DNA of 64,000 bases. It comes from Myxococcales bacterium (GTDB taxonomy: Bacteria > Myxococcota_A > Polyangia > Palsa-1104 > JAEUJZ01). The DNA lies in the NCBI GenBank assembly GCA_016794365.1, contig JAEUKB010000021.1, forward strand, positions 124,001 to 188,000, read 5' to 3'. The notes beneath the pieces are model-generated. The model was not told the origin of the DNA. It saw only the letters and a list, made by a program, of their open reading frames with translations, and made no database searches. Numbering within the stretch: the first letter of the stretch is position 1; the number at the start of each line of letters is the position of its first letter. Shown here one piece after another: positions 10,697-18,970 of this stretch. The position numbers and the translations under genes are program-made.

Positions 10697-11275
10697 CTAA
10701 GACGCAGGCAGGCTGTGCTGGAGCGCAGACAGGGCGTCGCCTAGCTCCGCCAGCAGGGGATGGTCGCCGAGCCGCTGGGACAGCACCTCGTGCAGGGATC
10801 GGTAGTACCAGAGCTGATCCGACTGCGAGCTGCGAAAGCGGCTCCATACCTCGGGGCCGCGCTGCCGCAGATCGCTCAGGGTGGCTTGCAGGTTGTGCAG
10901 CGCGTCGGCGGTCTTGATCGCGGCGATGTGCCGGTCGGCGTGCTGGAGCTTGCGCAGCTGGGCCTCTTTGCGCACTTTCCAGGGCAGCGGCTCGGTCCCT
11001 TCGGTCTTCTGCTCGGACACGGCGGCGACCAGGCGGGCGACCTCTTCACCGAACTCGGCCCGCAACTCGGACAGGGATGTGCTGGTGTCTTCGACCACGT
11101 CGTGGAGCAGCGCCGCGATGATGACCTCATCGGGGAAGTGGTGCCGCAAAAGGAGGAGCGCGACGTGGACGGGATGGATGATGTACGGAACCTGCGAGCC
11201 TTTGCGGGCCTGGTTCCGGTGGGCGGTGGCAGAGACGACGAGGGCGCGATCGATGAGCGGGGAATAGCTGGCCAT
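10697..11275 (-). CDS. Small alarmone hydrolase-like HD protein (RelA/SpoT hydrolase domain only)
   Basis: This 192-residue protein consists of one HD phosphohydrolase domain of the RelA/SpoT-MESH1 type. All expected metal and catalytic positions can be read: His34 in YIIHPVH, His58-Asp59 in ALLHDVVEDT, Glu62-Asp63, and Asp124 and Asn128 in ADALHNL. There is no synthetase, TGS or ACT domain, so it would only degrade (p)ppGpp or a related pyrophosphate nucleotide; MESH1 relatives can also act on NADPH. The gene starts seven bases after the FHA gene stop and is the last gene of a cluster headed by the SIR2-like/TPR gene. It converges on moxR. The hydrolase call is firm; substrate is inferred. 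Confidence 0.87.
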   Translation of the reverse strand: MASYSPLIDRALVVSATAHRNQARKGSQVPYIIHPVHVALLLLRHHFPDEVIIAALLHDVVEDTSTSLSELRAEFGEEVARLVAAVSEQKTEGTEPLPWKVRKEAQLRKLQHADRHIAAIKTADALHNLQATLSDLRQRGPEVWSRFRSSQSDQLWYYRSLHEVLSQRLGDHPLLAELGDALSALQHSLPAS

Positions 11276-11282
11276 GTGCGGT

Positions 11283-12410
11283 TTAACGAAGCTTGTCGGG
11301 GGACAGGCTGGGGGCGTCGGCTCGGGTGGAGCGGATGGTGTTGCGGGGATGCCAGGTCAGCTCGACCTTGGAGTCATTGCCCGATAGGAGGAGCTGGGTG
11401 CCTTGATCGGGCAGCTCGACGCGACGGATGCGCTGACCGTGCTGCCAGGTGCCGTTGGTGCTGCACAGATCCATCGCATAGACGCGGCCTCGCTCGGCCA
11501 TGAGCAAAAGGTGCAGTCGCGAGATCTGACCGGAGAGCACCTGGCGCAGGCCGCGATCCATGCAGGTCTCGGAGCGACCGATGATGACGCCCGCGTAGAG
11601 ATCGGCTTCGCTTAGCTCGACGGAGACGGCCTTGGTCTGGCGACGCAAGGTGACACGGGCGCGACCGGCTGGGGCGGCGGGAATGGCGGCCCCGGACTGT
11701 AGATCTTCGACGCGCTGAGAGCGGGGCAGCAAGGTGATGTGGGTCCGTCGCTGCATCCGCAGGGAGTTCTGGGGCGGCTGCTCGGCTTCCACAAAGTCGT
11801 AGCTGGGTAGCTCGACCGCGTCAGCCAGCCTGCCGCGCTGGGACAGAAACTCGGGCAGGGGGACGCAGCCAATCGCGCAGTCGCCCAGGCCAATCAGCAG
11901 CGGACCGCTGACGCCAATCGACTGCCGGGGCTGGCCTTCAATCGTAAAGGGCTGGCTTGTGTGCAGGTCGAGCAGTCGCAGGGCAGGGGTCTTGTCGGCG
12001 AGCAGGGCGCAGCTGGCAAGCAGGTGGCGGTTGGTCACGCTCGGCAGCTTGGGCAGCACCAAGTCACAGTTTTCGTGCCAGCCCATGACTGCAAACACAG
12101 ACGACGACGCTTCCAAGTCAATCCAGCCGAGGTCGCGGCCATGGACCCAGAACAGGCGATAGCCGGTGCGGCAGGCGGCGGGCTGGTCGAGCAGCATCCG
12201 CGCGCCAAAGACGTAGGCCTCACGCAGGGAGTGGGGACTGGGACCGGGCTGGACGGCCCGCAGGTGTCCGGCGCTCTGTCCGACTGCGCTCTTGCTGGGT
12301 CCGGGGGCAATGCCGGAGACTTCCCCGGTGGCCTCTGCGGGCTCAGGCGGAACCAGCCGCAGCTGCGGTCGTCCGGGCCTTAAGGAGCCGCTTGGCTCAT
12401 CCGAGTCCAT
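11283..12410 (-). CDS. Double FHA-domain protein
   Basis: The start at the ATG complementary to 12408-12410 (MDSDEPSGSLRPG) gives 375 residues; the longer in-frame start overlaps the upstream gene and lacks support. A Pro-rich N-terminal 60 residues are followed by a divergent FHA-like domain (VMGWHENCDLVLP, then SVTNRHLLAS) and a linker. A canonical FHA domain comes next (VIIGRSETC, then ISRLHLLLM, then DLCSTNGTWQHG). FHA domains bind phosphothreonine, so the protein probably reads Ser/Thr kinase signals, which are abundant in Myxococcota; no kinase is in the window. It lies 73 bp after the SIR2-like/TPR gene and seven bases before the alarmone hydrolase gene. The second domain is secure; the first is degenerate but recognisable. 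Confidence 0.85.
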   Translation of the reverse strand: MDSDEPSGSLRPGRPQLRLVPPEPAEATGEVSGIAPGPSKSAVGQSAGHLRAVQPGPSPHSLREAYVFGARMLLDQPAACRTGYRLFWVHGRDLGWIDLEASSSVFAVMGWHENCDLVLPKLPSVTNRHLLASCALLADKTPALRLLDLHTSQPFTIEGQPRQSIGVSGPLLIGLGDCAIGCVPLPEFLSQRGRLADAVELPSYDFVEAEQPPQNSLRMQRRTHITLLPRSQRVEDLQSGAAIPAAPAGRARVTLRRQTKAVSVELSEADLYAGVIIGRSETCMDRGLRQVLSGQISRLHLLLMAERGRVYAMDLCSTNGTWQHGQRIRRVELPDQGTQLLLSGNDSKVELTWHPRNTIRSTRADAPSLSPDKLR

Positions 12411-12483
12411 GCTCTGGATTATAACCGCAATCCCCCGGGAAATGGGGGACGGGATGGGGCGGGGCAGAAGGAGGGAGGTGCGA

Positions 12484-15400
12484 CTACAGGCCGAGGAACT
12501 GGCGAACGGAGGCCAGCTCTTCACTCACCGCAAAGTGCAGCAGCTCTAGGAGCCTCTGCTTGGGCGAAAGCAGCGTCAGGCCGGGCGGATCGGTCGCGAG
12601 CAGCAGCGCCGCTGTCTCTAGATCGCCGCACAACAGCGCACCCACGCGCACGGTCGTCAGCTCCGACGCCGACAGCCAGGTGTTGGCCAGCTGGGTCGGC
12701 TTGACAGCAGAGTCGGTCAGGGTGCGACCCACGCGACAGAGCTGCTCTAGCTGCTGCGGGGACAGGGCACCCCGCAGGCTGCGGGCCAGCTCGAGCACCG
12801 GACCGGAGGCGGGCGGCGTGACCTGGCTTAGCTCTTGGTTGGTGAGGATGAGCGCGGCTTCGATGATCTGCGCCAGCTCTTGTTCATCGGACAGCACGGT
12901 GCGGAGCGCGCGCTCGGGACGCAAAAGGGCCGCCATCCGACCGACTTCGTACAGGGTTTCGCGCTCGGGACGGCTGGGATCGAGCAGCGGCGGGCCCAGC
13001 TCGGCGCAGACCGTCGCGGGCCCTTGGCCGTCGCGGGCGATCGAGATGAGGAAGGCTTGCTCCGCCAGCTCGCGGGCTTGCGGCCTGGGATACAGCTCGG
13101 GCAGCGGCGACTCGGTCATCTCAAAGGCGTAGCGCAGCGCTTTGAGATAGACCTGGGAGGCGCTTGGCTCGACGCGGCTATTGCGATCGAAGGGCTGCTC
13201 GGTGAAGGGGCGGGCGTGGCGCTTTTGCAGGCTGGGCCACAGCACGGCGAGCAGCGCTTGCAGGCGCGTATCCTCATCGGGGTGGCTGACCATCCGCCAC
13301 AGATCCTTGGTAAGCGGCCTGCGGGCGAGCGCAACCGGACGGCTGCGCAGCTCATCCACCAGCGCGGCATCATCGGGGGAGCCCTGGCGCAGCAAGGTCA
13401 GCGCATGGGCCACCTGGGCGGCTCGGTCGCGCTGGCCGGTCTTGCCGTAGAGATCGCGCAGCGCCTTGTAGGAGGCCAGCTCGCCCTTGCTGTGCTTGAG
13501 GATGTGGTGATGTTCGGCAATTGCCTTGTCGAGCTTGTCGTCCCCGGCGGTCGCGTAGATGGCTGCCATCTGGCGGTGACGATCCAGGTTGCCCGGCTCT
13601 AGCGTGAGCGAGACTTCGTACGCGCTCATGCCGGTCTTGAGATCGCCCAGCTCTTGAATGCAGACGCGCGCCACCTCGGTCCACAGCCGCAGCCGCTCGG
13701 CGCGCTGCTTGGGGGAGTCGCCTTGCTCGGGGCCCATGACCTTGATACGGCGCTGCATGGCCCGCAGCCGCTCTTTGGGGTCAGAGAGCTGCGCGGCCAG
13801 GGTCTCGGCAGACTCCAGGCTCTTGACGAGCGTGGGATCGTCGTCGAACGAGCTCCAGAGCAGGCGCAGGGCACGACGCGGCTCGTTCAAGTGATCGCGG
13901 GTAATGAAGCCAGCGGTCTGCTTGTAGCGCGCGCGGCGCTTTTCGTTGGTCTCGGCAGCGGCCAGCTCTTGCAGCAGGTTCGCGGCTTCTGCCCACAGTT
14001 TCTGCTCGGTGTAGACCGACAGCAGCTTGTGCTGGATGGTCACGGCCTGCGGGGACAGCGACAGCGCTTCCCGGTAGGAGGCGATCGCTTCTTGCGGCTT
14101 GGCGAGCGGGCCCGCGTACAGGTCGCCGATTTCGATGAGGACCGACAGGCGATCCTCTGCGGTGCCGGGCTCACCCGGATGCGCGAGCAGCGAGCGGAGC
14201 AGCGACTGCCGGACTTCCAGCTTCTCTTCGGCGGACAGCGAGTCCACGCGGCGGAGCTGAGAGAGCGCCAAGCGATGCAGCGGCAGAAGCTCACGCGCTT
14301 TTTGGAGCGCCAGCTTGGACGGCTCTTCATTGCCAAGCGCGAGCTCTGCCTGACCCTTGCTGGCCCACAGATCGGCCAGCTCGGCCTGACCGAGCGCTTC
14401 GTGGTGCTCGGACAGGAGGGTGTCGCTGATCGCGCGCGCATCGACAAACTGTCCCGTCTCAATGAGCAGCGGCAAAAGCCCGCGCAGGGCCCCGAGATCC
14501 TTGGGCTCTAGCTCCAGCGCGCGTCGGTAGGCACGGCGGGCTTTGTCGCGCAGACCGGCACCGAGAGACGCCTGCGCCAGCCGAGACAGCCGGATCACCT
14601 GCGTGCCGCGCTCTGCTTCCTTGCGGGTCAGCATTTCCAAAAGGGGCAGCGCGTCCTCGAAGCGTCCGTCTTGCCAGTACAGCTCGGACAGCAGCTGGGC
14701 GGCATCGTTGTGCTCTGGATCTTGGGCCAGCACATCGCGCAGCAGGTCGCCCGCTTTCTGTCTTTCTTCCGCGAGCAGGTGTTCCTTGGCGGACTGCACC
14801 ATCCAGCGACCCTTGTCGAGCCGGTTGGTGCTCTGCTCGGCGGCTTCCTTGAACAGCTTGGCCGCTCGCAGGTGATCGCCACGGCTGCGGTAGAGATCGG
14901 CGAGCGCGCTCTGCGTCTGGACGTGACCGGGCAGGATCTCCAGGGCGCGGACCAGGTGCTCTTCCGCTGCACTGGCGTCGGACAGCTTGGCAAGGCACAG
15001 CCGCGCCGCTTCGCCATAGAGCGTCACCTTGAGGTTCTTGTCGTCCGAAAGGTGCGCGCGCTTGACCAGATAGCGGACCGCTTCTTCGGGCTGCTCGCTC
15101 TGCTGATACAGCCGTCCGAGCGCTTCGATGGCACCTGTGTGCTCGGGCTCGCCATCGAGGATTTGCAGCCACGCAGCGATGGCCTTGGGCGCATGCTGCC
15201 GACGCAGCTGCTCGTCACCGGCTGGAAGCTCTAGCTCATGGACGCGGGCGAGGGCGGACAGCAGCTCACTGCGGCCCTTTTCGGCGTGATCAATGTGACG
15301 CTGATAGGTCGCGCACAGCTCGTCCCACTTTTTCTGCTGGCGATACAGCCGACACAGCGAGCGGTACGTCTCTTCCGACTTGGGATCGATGGTCAGGATC

Positions 15401-17451
15401 TTTTCGAGCGCTGCCGTCGCGCTGTCTAGCTGACCGGGAATCTCTTCGTACTCTGCCGCGAGCCGCCGATACATCGACAGCCGCTCTTTGTCGCTCTGGA
15501 CCTGCTGCGCAAGCTGCGCCAGCACCGTCAGATACGCTTCCGAGACACTGCCTTCGGTGGAATACAGCCGCTCAAGCGCGCGCAGGACATCGAGATCTTG
15601 CGGGGCCAGCTTGTGGACTTCTTCCCAGCGCCGAATGCTCGCGCGGCGGTCGGTGCCATGCTCTGCCTGAAGCTGGGCCGCTTCGCGTCGTGCCTGAAGC
15701 TCACCCTCGCGATCGCCTTGTTCGGCGAGAAGTCCGGCTCGCTCGTCCAAAAGGGCGATGAGATCGTTCCAGTTTGACGCCCGGCGCAGCGTGTGTTCGA
15801 GCGCGAGCATGGCGTCGCGGCTGGCCGGATCGCTGGTGCGCGCTGCTTTGTAGGCGGCAATGGCTGCGGCGCTGTCTTGAAGGCGCGTCTCGAAGATCTC
15901 GCCTTGTTCGAGGTACAGATCGACGCGCTTGTCTTTGGCGTCCGAAAGCTCTGCGATCTGTCCAAGGGTATCGGCCAGGTCTTTCCAGCGCTGCGAACGA
16001 CGGCACAGGTCGGCTCGCAGGCTCAAAAACGCGGGCTTTTCGGCATCGGGAATGGTCAGCTTCTGCGCTTCCCCAAGCGAGGCGAGCGCGTAGTCATGGT
16101 GGCTTAGCTTTTCGCCGTACAGCTTGGCGATGCGAATCCACAGCACGGCTTGCTCGGTCTTCGGCTGACGCGGCACGAGATCGCGCATCTCGGTGAGCAG
16201 CTCGACCCACTGGCCAGCCTGACCGGCCAGGCGCTCGATCTCATCGAGCCCGACCGTCTGCGGATCTTCTTTGTAGGCAGCCATCGCGGCTTGGAAGGCT
16301 TCGGCCAGCTGGGCTTTGCCCGTCTCGAAGACCTTGGCAGCCTGAAGCAGGCACTGGGCGCGTCCGCTCGGCGTGGTCTCGACATCCATGCGTCCGAGCA
16401 GCAGCTCGATCAAGCGATCGTGGTCTGCGGACTCGCGCAGCTTGGCTTCTAGCTGGGCCAGCTTGTTCTGCGCTTCGGCATGATCGGGCTCTTGCTGAAG
16501 CAGTCGCAGCCAGCCTTCCAGGTCATCGTCGTCGGGGAGCACTTCGCTGCCGATCTCTCCGACCGATTCATGCAGGGCCTTGAGCACGGCTTCTTCGCTG
16601 TCCGCATCGAGCACGACCAGGCCGTAGGCATGCGACAGCTCATCGCGCAGACCCGCAGGCAGACCGGGCAGCAGCGCAAAGTGTTGTGGACCTTCTCCGC
16701 TCGTCTGGGCCAGCGACAGAAGCCGCGCGGTGACAGCCAGATCGGGATCGCGCACATCGAAGCCAATGAGCAGCAGCGATCGCTTGAGCGCCAGCTCGCG
16801 CAGCGACTGTCGCATCGCTTCGTTGGTGAACAGCTTCTGGACATCGGCTTCGCCAAAGACCAGGCCCGCGTCGTTTTGGGCATCGCCAAACAGCCGCAAC
16901 AGGAAGCGGCCTCGGCTGGCCAGCATCTCAATCGTCTGTTCGGACGTGCCAATCTGCGGCGCGCCACCCGGTGAGGGCGCTTCCTTGACCGCCTCTATCA
17001 GACCTTCGTCGAGCGCGGTGGTGATAAGGCCTCGGAACGGCAGCTTGGCGGCCAGCGCGAGGAGCTGCTGGTTGCGCTCGCTGGGCAGGACAGACTGAAG
17101 CGCGCGAGCAAAGTCTGCGCCGAGTCGCTTGCGGAGCAGGCTGGCCACAAACAGCGGCTGACTGTCGAGGAGTGCTTTCGCCTGCGCGACCTCGTCTTCT
17201 CCACCCAGCTTGTCCGCGTGCTGACTGAGCAGCTTCCCGAGCAGGGTCCGTAGCGATGCTTCAGACGCTCGGCGTCCAAAAATACTGCCTGTACACAACA
17301 CCACCCGACCGGCGCGCAGTCTCTGAACGAGCAGAGAAAGCCCACTTTGCGATGGATCCTGCGTGGGGAGATGCGGTTCATCATGATGCGCCGAGTCTGA
17401 CTGCCCGGCTGCGCGGTCTGGTTTTTGAGCAGAAGAGTGCTTTTTGGCCAT
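12484..17451 (-). CDS. Degenerate SIR2-like domain fused to a long TPR array
   Basis: This protein has about 1655 residues from the ATG at 17451 (MAKKHSS); a GTG at 17469 is an alternative. The first 30 residues are polar. Residues about 40-320 follow the block order of bacterial SIR2-like domains: VVLCTGSIFG (50-59), LITTALDEGLIE (142-153), RFLLRLFGD (182-190), FGEADVQKLF (199-208) and LLLIGFDVRDPDL (226-238). The usual ITTN(F/Y)D Asn and the KLHGD His are replaced by Ala and Phe, so NAD hydrolysis is doubtful. Residues about 330-1420 are TPR repeats (for example WNDLIALLDERAGLLAEQGD). The C-terminal 220 residues form a separate domain. It heads a cluster with the FHA and alarmone hydrolase genes. 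The TPR call is certain; the SIR2 call is by motif order. Confidence 0.8.
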   Translation of the reverse strand: MAKKHSSAQKPDRAAGQSDSAHHDEPHLPTQDPSQSGLSLLVQRLRAGRVVLCTGSIFGRRASEASLRTLLGKLLSQHADKLGGEDEVAQAKALLDSQPLFVASLLRKRLGADFARALQSVLPSERNQQLLALAAKLPFRGLITTALDEGLIEAVKEAPSPGGAPQIGTSEQTIEMLASRGRFLLRLFGDAQNDAGLVFGEADVQKLFTNEAMRQSLRELALKRSLLLIGFDVRDPDLAVTARLLSLAQTSGEGPQHFALLPGLPAGLRDELSHAYGLVVLDADSEEAVLKALHESVGEIGSEVLPDDDDLEGWLRLLQQEPDHAEAQNKLAQLEAKLRESADHDRLIELLLGRMDVETTPSGRAQCLLQAAKVFETGKAQLAEAFQAAMAAYKEDPQTVGLDEIERLAGQAGQWVELLTEMRDLVPRQPKTEQAVLWIRIAKLYGEKLSHHDYALASLGEAQKLTIPDAEKPAFLSLRADLCRRSQRWKDLADTLGQIAELSDAKDKRVDLYLEQGEIFETRLQDSAAAIAAYKAARTSDPASRDAMLALEHTLRRASNWNDLIALLDERAGLLAEQGDREGELQARREAAQLQAEHGTDRRASIRRWEEVHKLAPQDLDVLRALERLYSTEGSVSEAYLTVLAQLAQQVQSDKERLSMYRRLAAEYEEIPGQLDSATAALEKILTIDPKSEETYRSLCRLYRQQKKWDELCATYQRHIDHAEKGRSELLSALARVHELELPAGDEQLRRQHAPKAIAAWLQILDGEPEHTGAIEALGRLYQQSEQPEEAVRYLVKRAHLSDDKNLKVTLYGEAARLCLAKLSDASAAEEHLVRALEILPGHVQTQSALADLYRSRGDHLRAAKLFKEAAEQSTNRLDKGRWMVQSAKEHLLAEERQKAGDLLRDVLAQDPEHNDAAQLLSELYWQDGRFEDALPLLEMLTRKEAERGTQVIRLSRLAQASLGAGLRDKARRAYRRALELEPKDLGALRGLLPLLIETGQFVDARAISDTLLSEHHEALGQAELADLWASKGQAELALGNEEPSKLALQKARELLPLHRLALSQLRRVDSLSAEEKLEVRQSLLRSLLAHPGEPGTAEDRLSVLIEIGDLYAGPLAKPQEAIASYREALSLSPQAVTIQHKLLSVYTEQKLWAEAANLLQELAAAETNEKRRARYKQTAGFITRDHLNEPRRALRLLWSSFDDDPTLVKSLESAETLAAQLSDPKERLRAMQRRIKVMGPEQGDSPKQRAERLRLWTEVARVCIQELGDLKTGMSAYEVSLTLEPGNLDRHRQMAAIYATAGDDKLDKAIAEHHHILKHSKGELASYKALRDLYGKTGQRDRAAQVAHALTLLRQGSPDDAALVDELRSRPVALARRPLTKDLWRMVSHPDEDTRLQALLAVLWPSLQKRHARPFTEQPFDRNSRVEPSASQVYLKALRYAFEMTESPLPELYPRPQARELAEQAFLISIARDGQGPATVCAELGPPLLDPSRPERETLYEVGRMAALLRPERALRTVLSDEQELAQIIEAALILTNQELSQVTPPASGPVLELARSLRGALSPQQLEQLCRVGRTLTDSAVKPTQLANTWLSASELTTVRVGALLCGDLETAALLLATDPPGLTLLSPKQRLLELLHFAVSEELASVRQFLGL

Positions 17452-17484
17452 GTCGGCCTGGGTTAGCACAGCACGCCGACGCCG

Positions 17485-17536: not shown

Positions 17537-18970
17537 ATGATCAAACGACCTGCGCTGCTGGGTTTCATGCTGCTGGGGCTCTCGTATGGCTCGCTGAGCC
17601 ATGCACAGGGTGCGTTTCCAGCGCCGCTTGCTACGGTGAAGCCGGACAAGGGATTCATCGACGATGCCATGGCGATCACGCCGGGCGGGGCGGTGCTCTT
17701 GTATGTCACCACGGACGGACAGAAGTTCGCTTCGCTGCGCGGCCTGGCGCTGCCACCGGGACGAGGACTGAATCCCCAAGCCGCCGCTGAGCCTGCTGCT
17801 CCCGCGAATCCACCGGCGCCCGCATCGCCTGCGCCGCCTGCCGGCAAGGGTGCCAAGGGCAAGCCGCCTGCGCCGCCCGCTGCGTCCACACCGCCGCCAC
17901 CACCGACGCCGTTTATGGAAGAAGCGCTGGCGAAAGAGCTGGGCGCAGAGCCGCAGAAGACCAAGGAATTGATCAAGAAGCTGCCGCTCAATACGCATCG
18001 GCTGCATCTGCTACCGGACGACAAGATCCTGCTGGTGATGCGCGATCTGGAAACGGCGGGCCAGCTGACGGGTCAGATCTTTAGCTTGAAGACCCACGCC
18101 GAGGTTGCTGTGCCGGGCGGCATCGGTCCTGCCACGGACATCAGCTTGACGACGGTGGATGGCCAGCCCGCGATCATGGCCGTCAGCAAGCCCGGACCGC
18201 AGAGCCCACAGAACCCGCGCAGCCTGCTCAGCAGCGAGTACAAGTTCACGGCGTACTCTGCGATGACCGGCAAGCAGCTCTCGCAGCGGACCTACAAGCT
18301 GGATGAAGAGGGACACATCCAGACCGGCTCGGGACCGGCGCTGCCGCTGTACTTTCTGGACGGATATGCGACGTGGGTGCTCAAGCAAAGTGGCGCGTTT
18401 GACAAGAAGAAAGATGTGCGCCAGCCCGATGTCGTGGCGTTCTTCGATGTGTTCGGCGGCAAGGTGCGCATGACCCGACCGATCATTGATGCTCCGGCGC
18501 TGATGGATCTCAAGCGCGTGCGGGCCGCGCAGTCCGAATCGGTTGCGATCTTCGCTGAAGACGGCACAAACCAGGTGGAGGTTGTGTCGGCGCTGGAGCG
18601 CGGTCGTCCCGATGGTCCGGTCGAGTATCGTGGTCCGCTGCCGCTGCCGCGTCCTGCTGGAATCTATGACGCTCCGTCGCTGCGCTTTGTACGTCTGCGT
18701 CCGAGCAAGCTGCTTTTGTCCCTGATGGTCGATCCGGTCAATGAAGAAGCCGTGGCGCAAAAGCGGACCGATCCCGATGAAGTAGACTTTTGCTTGGTCG
18801 ATCTGTCGGGTGACAAGCCGGGCGCGGCAGAGCGGAAGCTGACGCTGCTTGCGGGCAAGCGACCGCTCGGCTGGGTGGCTTCCCCATCGGGGCGTGTGGT
18901 GGTGCTGCGCAAACACAAAGGCTTTTCGCGCGGCGGTACCGAAGCAGAAGTCTACGATCTGGCCCCGTAG
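17537..18970 (+). CDS. Secreted hypothetical protein with Pro-rich linker
   Basis: This 477-residue protein begins with a clear Sec signal peptide (MIKRPALLGFMLLGLSYG, probable cleavage after SHA at residue 23). A short segment is followed by a low-complexity Ala/Pro linker at about residues 78-125 (PAAPANPPAPASPAPP and PPPPPTPF). The remaining 350 residues are rich in short beta-strand-like blocks resembling a beta-propeller or quinoprotein-like fold (ILLVMRDLETAGQLTGQIFSL, VVAFFDVFGGKV, LLSLMVDPVNEE), but no defining repeat motif can be named. It probably acts in the periplasm or at the cell surface. It is divergent from the SIR2-like/TPR gene. No functional family was recognised. Confidence 0.7.
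   Translation: MIKRPALLGFMLLGLSYGSLSHAQGAFPAPLATVKPDKGFIDDAMAITPGGAVLLYVTTDGQKFASLRGLALPPGRGLNPQAAAEPAAPANPPAPASPAPPAGKGAKGKPPAPPAASTPPPPPTPFMEEALAKELGAEPQKTKELIKKLPLNTHRLHLLPDDKILLVMRDLETAGQLTGQIFSLKTHAEVAVPGGIGPATDISLTTVDGQPAIMAVSKPGPQSPQNPRSLLSSEYKFTAYSAMTGKQLSQRTYKLDEEGHIQTGSGPALPLYFLDGYATWVLKQSGAFDKKKDVRQPDVVAFFDVFGGKVRMTRPIIDAPALMDLKRVRAAQSESVAIFAEDGTNQVEVVSALERGRPDGPVEYRGPLPLPRPAGIYDAPSLRFVRLRPSKLLLSLMVDPVNEEAVAQKRTDPDEVDFCLVDLSGDKPGAAERKLTLLAGKRPLGWVASPSGRVVVLRKHKGFSRGGTEAEVYDLAP

Follow-up and report, generated by a model that had tools for sequence, protein, structure and literature searches.

A SIR2-like/TPR protein family of Myxococcota with loss of catalytic residues, and the FHA and small alarmone hydrolase genes beside it in one genus

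A three-gene cluster and its distribution among relatives

Do adjacent genes for a SIR2-like/TPR protein (SIR2-TPR), an FHA protein and a small alarmone hydrolase (SAH) constitute one signalling or immune module? The question is raised by a stretch of 64,000 nucleotides (the window) from a draft Myxococcota genome of 6.7 Mb in 104 contigs. An initial annotation had placed the three genes in this order at 10697-17451, and all three are indeed found there on the minus strand, with the end at 17451 corresponding to the ATG of the SIR2-TPR gene:

12484..17451, minus strand, SIR2-like/TPR protein gene, 1655 aa, start ATG at 17451
11283..12410, minus strand, FHA protein gene
10697..11275, minus strand, SAH (HD_4) gene, 192 aa

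The ATG at 17451 agrees with the starts in relatives, and an in-frame GTG is also available upstream at 17469. Gaps between the genes are short, with 73 bp from SIR2-TPR to FHA and 7 bp from the FHA stop to SAH. The same locus is present in a MAG labelled ‘uncultured Myxococcales’, where the SIR2-TPR protein is 93% identical. On its other side, the SIR2-TPR gene of each of the genus's three genomes adjoins a divergent gene (17537-18970 in the window), whose 477-aa product matches no Pfam or NCBIfam family.

Comparison with relatives allowed us to ask whether the three genes travel together. The window genome and one congener (G003) are the only ones to have the trio together, on the same strand, in the same order and with short gaps; the third genome of the genus (G002) is uninformative for trio linkage, as its contig breaks off within the SIR2 gene. 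In a sister genus of the same family (G001), the three orthologues lie on three contigs, SIR2-TPR on C42 (222 kb), SAH on C6 (201 kb) and FHA on C191 (361 kb), each more than 70 kb from any contig end. SIR2-TPR and SAH are likewise on different contigs in G005, where an FHA orthologue was not found.

SIR2-TPR itself is present in 13 of 14 genomes of the order, two of which carry extra copies. In a SIR2-TPR tree, read without five rows from families f7 and f9 that appear to be wrong-frame, antisense open reading frames, families f1, f2 and f3 each form a supported clade. This fits vertical descent, as for a core gene, and is unlike the patchy distribution of an immune gene. Related families show other recurrent neighbours. 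There, the gene after SIR2-TPR often encodes a Cys-rich lipoprotein-like protein, with CDP-alcohol phosphatidyltransferase and MobA-like genes alongside, and none of these neighbours clusters with genes near the window copy. The proposal that the three genes form a single signalling or immune module is therefore not upheld, as they are scattered in G001 and G005, which is the finding in close relatives that the initial annotation had named as refuting it, and SIR2-TPR is near-universal and follows family lines. An immune module in particular is rejected on the missing linkage, the vertical inheritance and the lost active site described below. The account that we favour, with moderate confidence, is that of a vertically inherited pseudo-SIR2/TPR scaffold that lies beside an unrelated FHA gene and an orphan SAH, with no three-gene module.

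A SIR2 fold without the usual catalytic residues

The N-terminal part of the SIR2-TPR protein holds the following domain:

16561..17352, minus strand, putative pseudo-SIR2 domain, approximately residues 40-303 of the frame from 17469

Pfam places SIR2_2 (PF13289) at residues 148-285 with 38.7 bits against a cutoff of 24.5, and a profile of 14 orthologues matches ThsA (E=1.5e-17), KomC, FAM118B and DSR2 in the PDB. An AlphaFold2 model of the domain (pLDDT 81) matches ThsA, KomC and DSR2 with a Foldseek probability of 1.00, so that the SIR2 fold, for which the initial annotation had proposed structure prediction as a check, is not in doubt.

The same annotation had suggested that the domain has lost the usual Asn and His and may not be an enzyme. 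The motifs of the window copy are TGSIFG, TTALDEG, RLFGDAQ and GFDVRDPDL, and their alignment bears out both losses, with TTN changed to TTA and HG to FG. In place of GAGxS, the window has TGSIFG and relatives have CAGSRLG-like sequences. The fold retains the GFxxxDPDL segment and part of the glycine-loop residues. Across the order's 14 orthologues and further families, the Asn of TTN is replaced by S, A, G, R, F or T, and it is absent from every examined long SIR2-TPR of the order and of families f7, f9, f10, f17, f19 and f21. The His of HG, which is LG or FG in the order's other orthologues, is lost in the examined long SIR2-TPR proteins except L068 and L069, both of which still lack the Asn. 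ThsA and the Myxococcota SIR2 proteins L084, L088 and L089 keep TTN and HG in the same alignment. Judged from these alignments, loss of catalytic residues is a general trait of the long SIR2-TPR family of Myxococcota, beyond the window copy.

Studies of active relatives indicate how much these residues matter. A single substitution of the Asn or the His abolishes the activity of FAM118A/B (PMC12700824). In Avs5, N110A abolishes immunity, and the SIR2 domain tolerates NG for HG but needs the Asn of TTN (PMC12931631). As the Asn and His are gone family-wide, we read the SIR2 domain as a pseudo-enzyme that is probably not an NADase, which supports the earlier suggestion of a non-enzymatic domain. 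Alternatively, the domain could retain an unusual enzymatic activity with an altered active site, since Avs5 shows the His to be replaceable and L068 and L069 keep HG without TTN. However, the replacing residues vary between clades, a pattern more in keeping with relaxed catalysis than with a newly conserved active site, and we consider such an activity improbable.

ThsA of the Thoeris system carries a SLOG domain. No SLOG was found in SIR2-TPR, and no TIR protein (ThsB) among the neighbouring proteins scanned. ThsA (PDB 8wc0, 6lhx, 8bto) has the same SIR2 fold and is the best profile and fold match, but it keeps TTN and HG, whereas the window protein lacks both and has a TPR array as the partner of its SIR2 domain. 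DSR2 and Avs5 resemble the window protein in layout, with a SIR2 domain at the N-terminus and long helical repeats making up the C-terminal part. In contrast to SIR2-TPR, which is without TTN and HG, both are active NADases, and Avs5 has a STAND NTPase (PMC12931631). Pfam finds no NTPase family in SIR2-TPR that would correspond to the STAND NTPase located between SIR2 and repeats in AVAST type 5.

One possible hypothesis from these likenesses is that SIR2-TPR acts in defence against phages, with its SIR2 domain as effector and its TPR array as sensor, on the pattern of Avs5 or DSR2. The nearest solved structures are defence NADases, and TPR repeats can sense phage proteins (PMC12931631). Yet both the Asn and the His are lost across the family, Pfam detects no STAND or SLOG part, PADLOC gives weak matches only, and the gene is near-universal and vertically inherited in the order. 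We therefore judge a defence role very unlikely, marginally more so than an unusual activity.

G000 encodes a second SIR2_2 protein (contig C29, L128:4276-6246), which has weak AAA matches; its gene is followed by one for a 799-aa protein with AAA matches (L128:6224-8620). This SIR2_2 gene resembles a classic SIR2 defence gene more closely than SIR2-TPR of the window does.

The TPR array and a shared C-terminal domain

The remainder of the SIR2-TPR protein consists of two regions:

13390..16440, minus strand, TPR solenoid, approximately residues 345-1360, matching Pfam TPR_19, TPR_8, TPR_7, TPR_1, TPR_2 and others
12487..13329, minus strand, C-terminal domain of approximately 280 aa, common to giant Myxococcota TPR proteins

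The conserved C-terminal domain also ends giant TPR proteins of 3400-4200 aa across Myxococcota, and is present in 93 of 190 sampled genomes of the phylum. One such protein of approximately 3990 aa is encoded in the same genome as the window (contig C55, L127:3744-15710) and has no SIR2 domain match. These giant proteins thus share with SIR2-TPR a TPR array and the same C-terminal domain, but are more than twice its length. The C-terminal domain is modelled confidently, with a pLDDT of 89.5 and a pTM of 0.86, has no significant PDB or viral match, and belongs to no Pfam or NCBIfam family. A helix after three strands, together with several insignificant matches to viral metallopeptidase- and SprT-named proteins (best E 0.2), hinted at a degenerate zinc peptidase. 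No HExxH is seen in the post-strand helix of any member, and the idea was set aside as a hint.

SIR2-TPR proteins of family f10 (L081, L082, L087) have lengths of 2088-2408 aa and an N-terminal extension that varies: 250-390 residues of open frame precede the SIR2 domain in L081 and L087. Full-text literature searches for the SIR2-TPR architecture found no paper. A broader reading, which we hold tentatively and as less probable than the scaffold account above, is that SIR2-TPR belongs to an undescribed Myxococcota family of large TPR scaffolds sharing the C-terminal domain, one branch of which would have made SIR2 a non-catalytic nucleotide sensor or oligomerisation hub with a core role in the cell.

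The FHA protein and the alarmone hydrolase

The FHA domain (PF00498, 41.9 bits) lies near the C-terminus, at residues 314-373 of the frame from 12524. Pfam detects this one domain and no second. The N-terminal half of the protein is conserved, with no PDB match and no profile match to the C-terminal half in comparisons of three-sequence profiles, which are weak tests. With a single FHA domain detectable, the ‘double FHA’ designation is unproven. A promoter-like element precedes the gene:

12418..12423, minus strand, TATAAT box, 7 bases upstream of the FHA ATG

The box reads TATAAT in the window and in G003. In G001, where a different TPR gene (961 aa; L129:9388-13403) precedes the FHA orthologue, the corresponding position has TATACT. 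A promoter scan found nothing. That the box is kept despite a different preceding gene suggests that FHA has its own promoter and, probably, a leaderless transcript. The FHA gene sits after a TPR gene in both the window and G001, yet is unlinked to SIR2-TPR in the latter.

The SAH consists of a single HD domain (HD_4, PF13328, 79.9 bits in Pfam) with no synthetase domain. The claim that its HD residues are all intact withstood a residue check, as R24, H34, H58, D59, E62, D63, D124 and N128 are all in place. Its best PDB matches are 7qoc (near full-length, E=2.4e-30) and 7qoe, ahead of MESH1. The window SAH, known here from its sequence, resembles these structures and the orphan XccSAH (PMC9765508) in having a single HD domain, intact catalytic residues and no toxic synthetase partner, although the host of XccSAH belongs to a different phylum. 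The genome has one synthetase domain, within a long Rel on contig C55. A toxSAS antitoxin hydrolase was rejected, as no toxic small alarmone synthetase lies beside SAH and the sole synthetase domain is that of the long Rel. By analogy with XccSAH, the SAH most likely trims (p)ppGpp beside the long Rel encoded elsewhere, and possibly also acts on NADPH. In G009, an SAH-like HD_4 domain forms the C-terminus of a 951-aa protein (L036:7494-10346), the remainder of which has no Pfam match.

There is a possible explanation that would reunite the three genes as a genus-specific operon. The pseudo-SIR2 domain would sense NAD+, ADP-ribose or a related nucleotide, FHA would relay a phospho-signal, and SAH would set the alarmone or NADPH level. 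In its favour are the like strand, order and short gaps in two genomes of the genus, and the retained GFxxxDPDL and glycine-loop residues. Against this, linkage is seen in one genus only, G005 yielded no FHA orthologue, and FHA has its own conserved promoter-like box; we consider the operon unlikely, if less so than a defence role or an unusual activity. Since the trio is co-directional and tightly packed within the genus, some co-expression is likely, which counts against the explanation that we prefer.

Discussion

The computed results are the fold, the residue loss, the distribution, the unlinked partners and the shared C-terminal domain. The residue loss leads us to infer a pseudo-SIR2 domain, and the architecture a scaffold role for SIR2-TPR. 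Such a scaffold would be cytoplasmic and most likely act by protein-protein assembly. The SIR2 fold, without NADase or deacetylase catalysis, may have been kept for oligomerisation or nucleotide binding, and the TPR array would hold client proteins. FHA and SAH would be separate functions, brought together in the window's genus.

Large bacterial proteins with SIR2-like domains are usually read as phage-defence NADases. The SIR2-TPR family keeps the fold without the catalytic residues in a vertically inherited gene, and its case recommends checking TTN and HG before a SIR2_2 match is annotated as defence. The main interest of the locus lies in this pseudo-SIR2/TPR family and in a C-terminal domain without a family match, which, being common to both, provides a handle on the giant Myxococcota TPR proteins, to which no function has been assigned.
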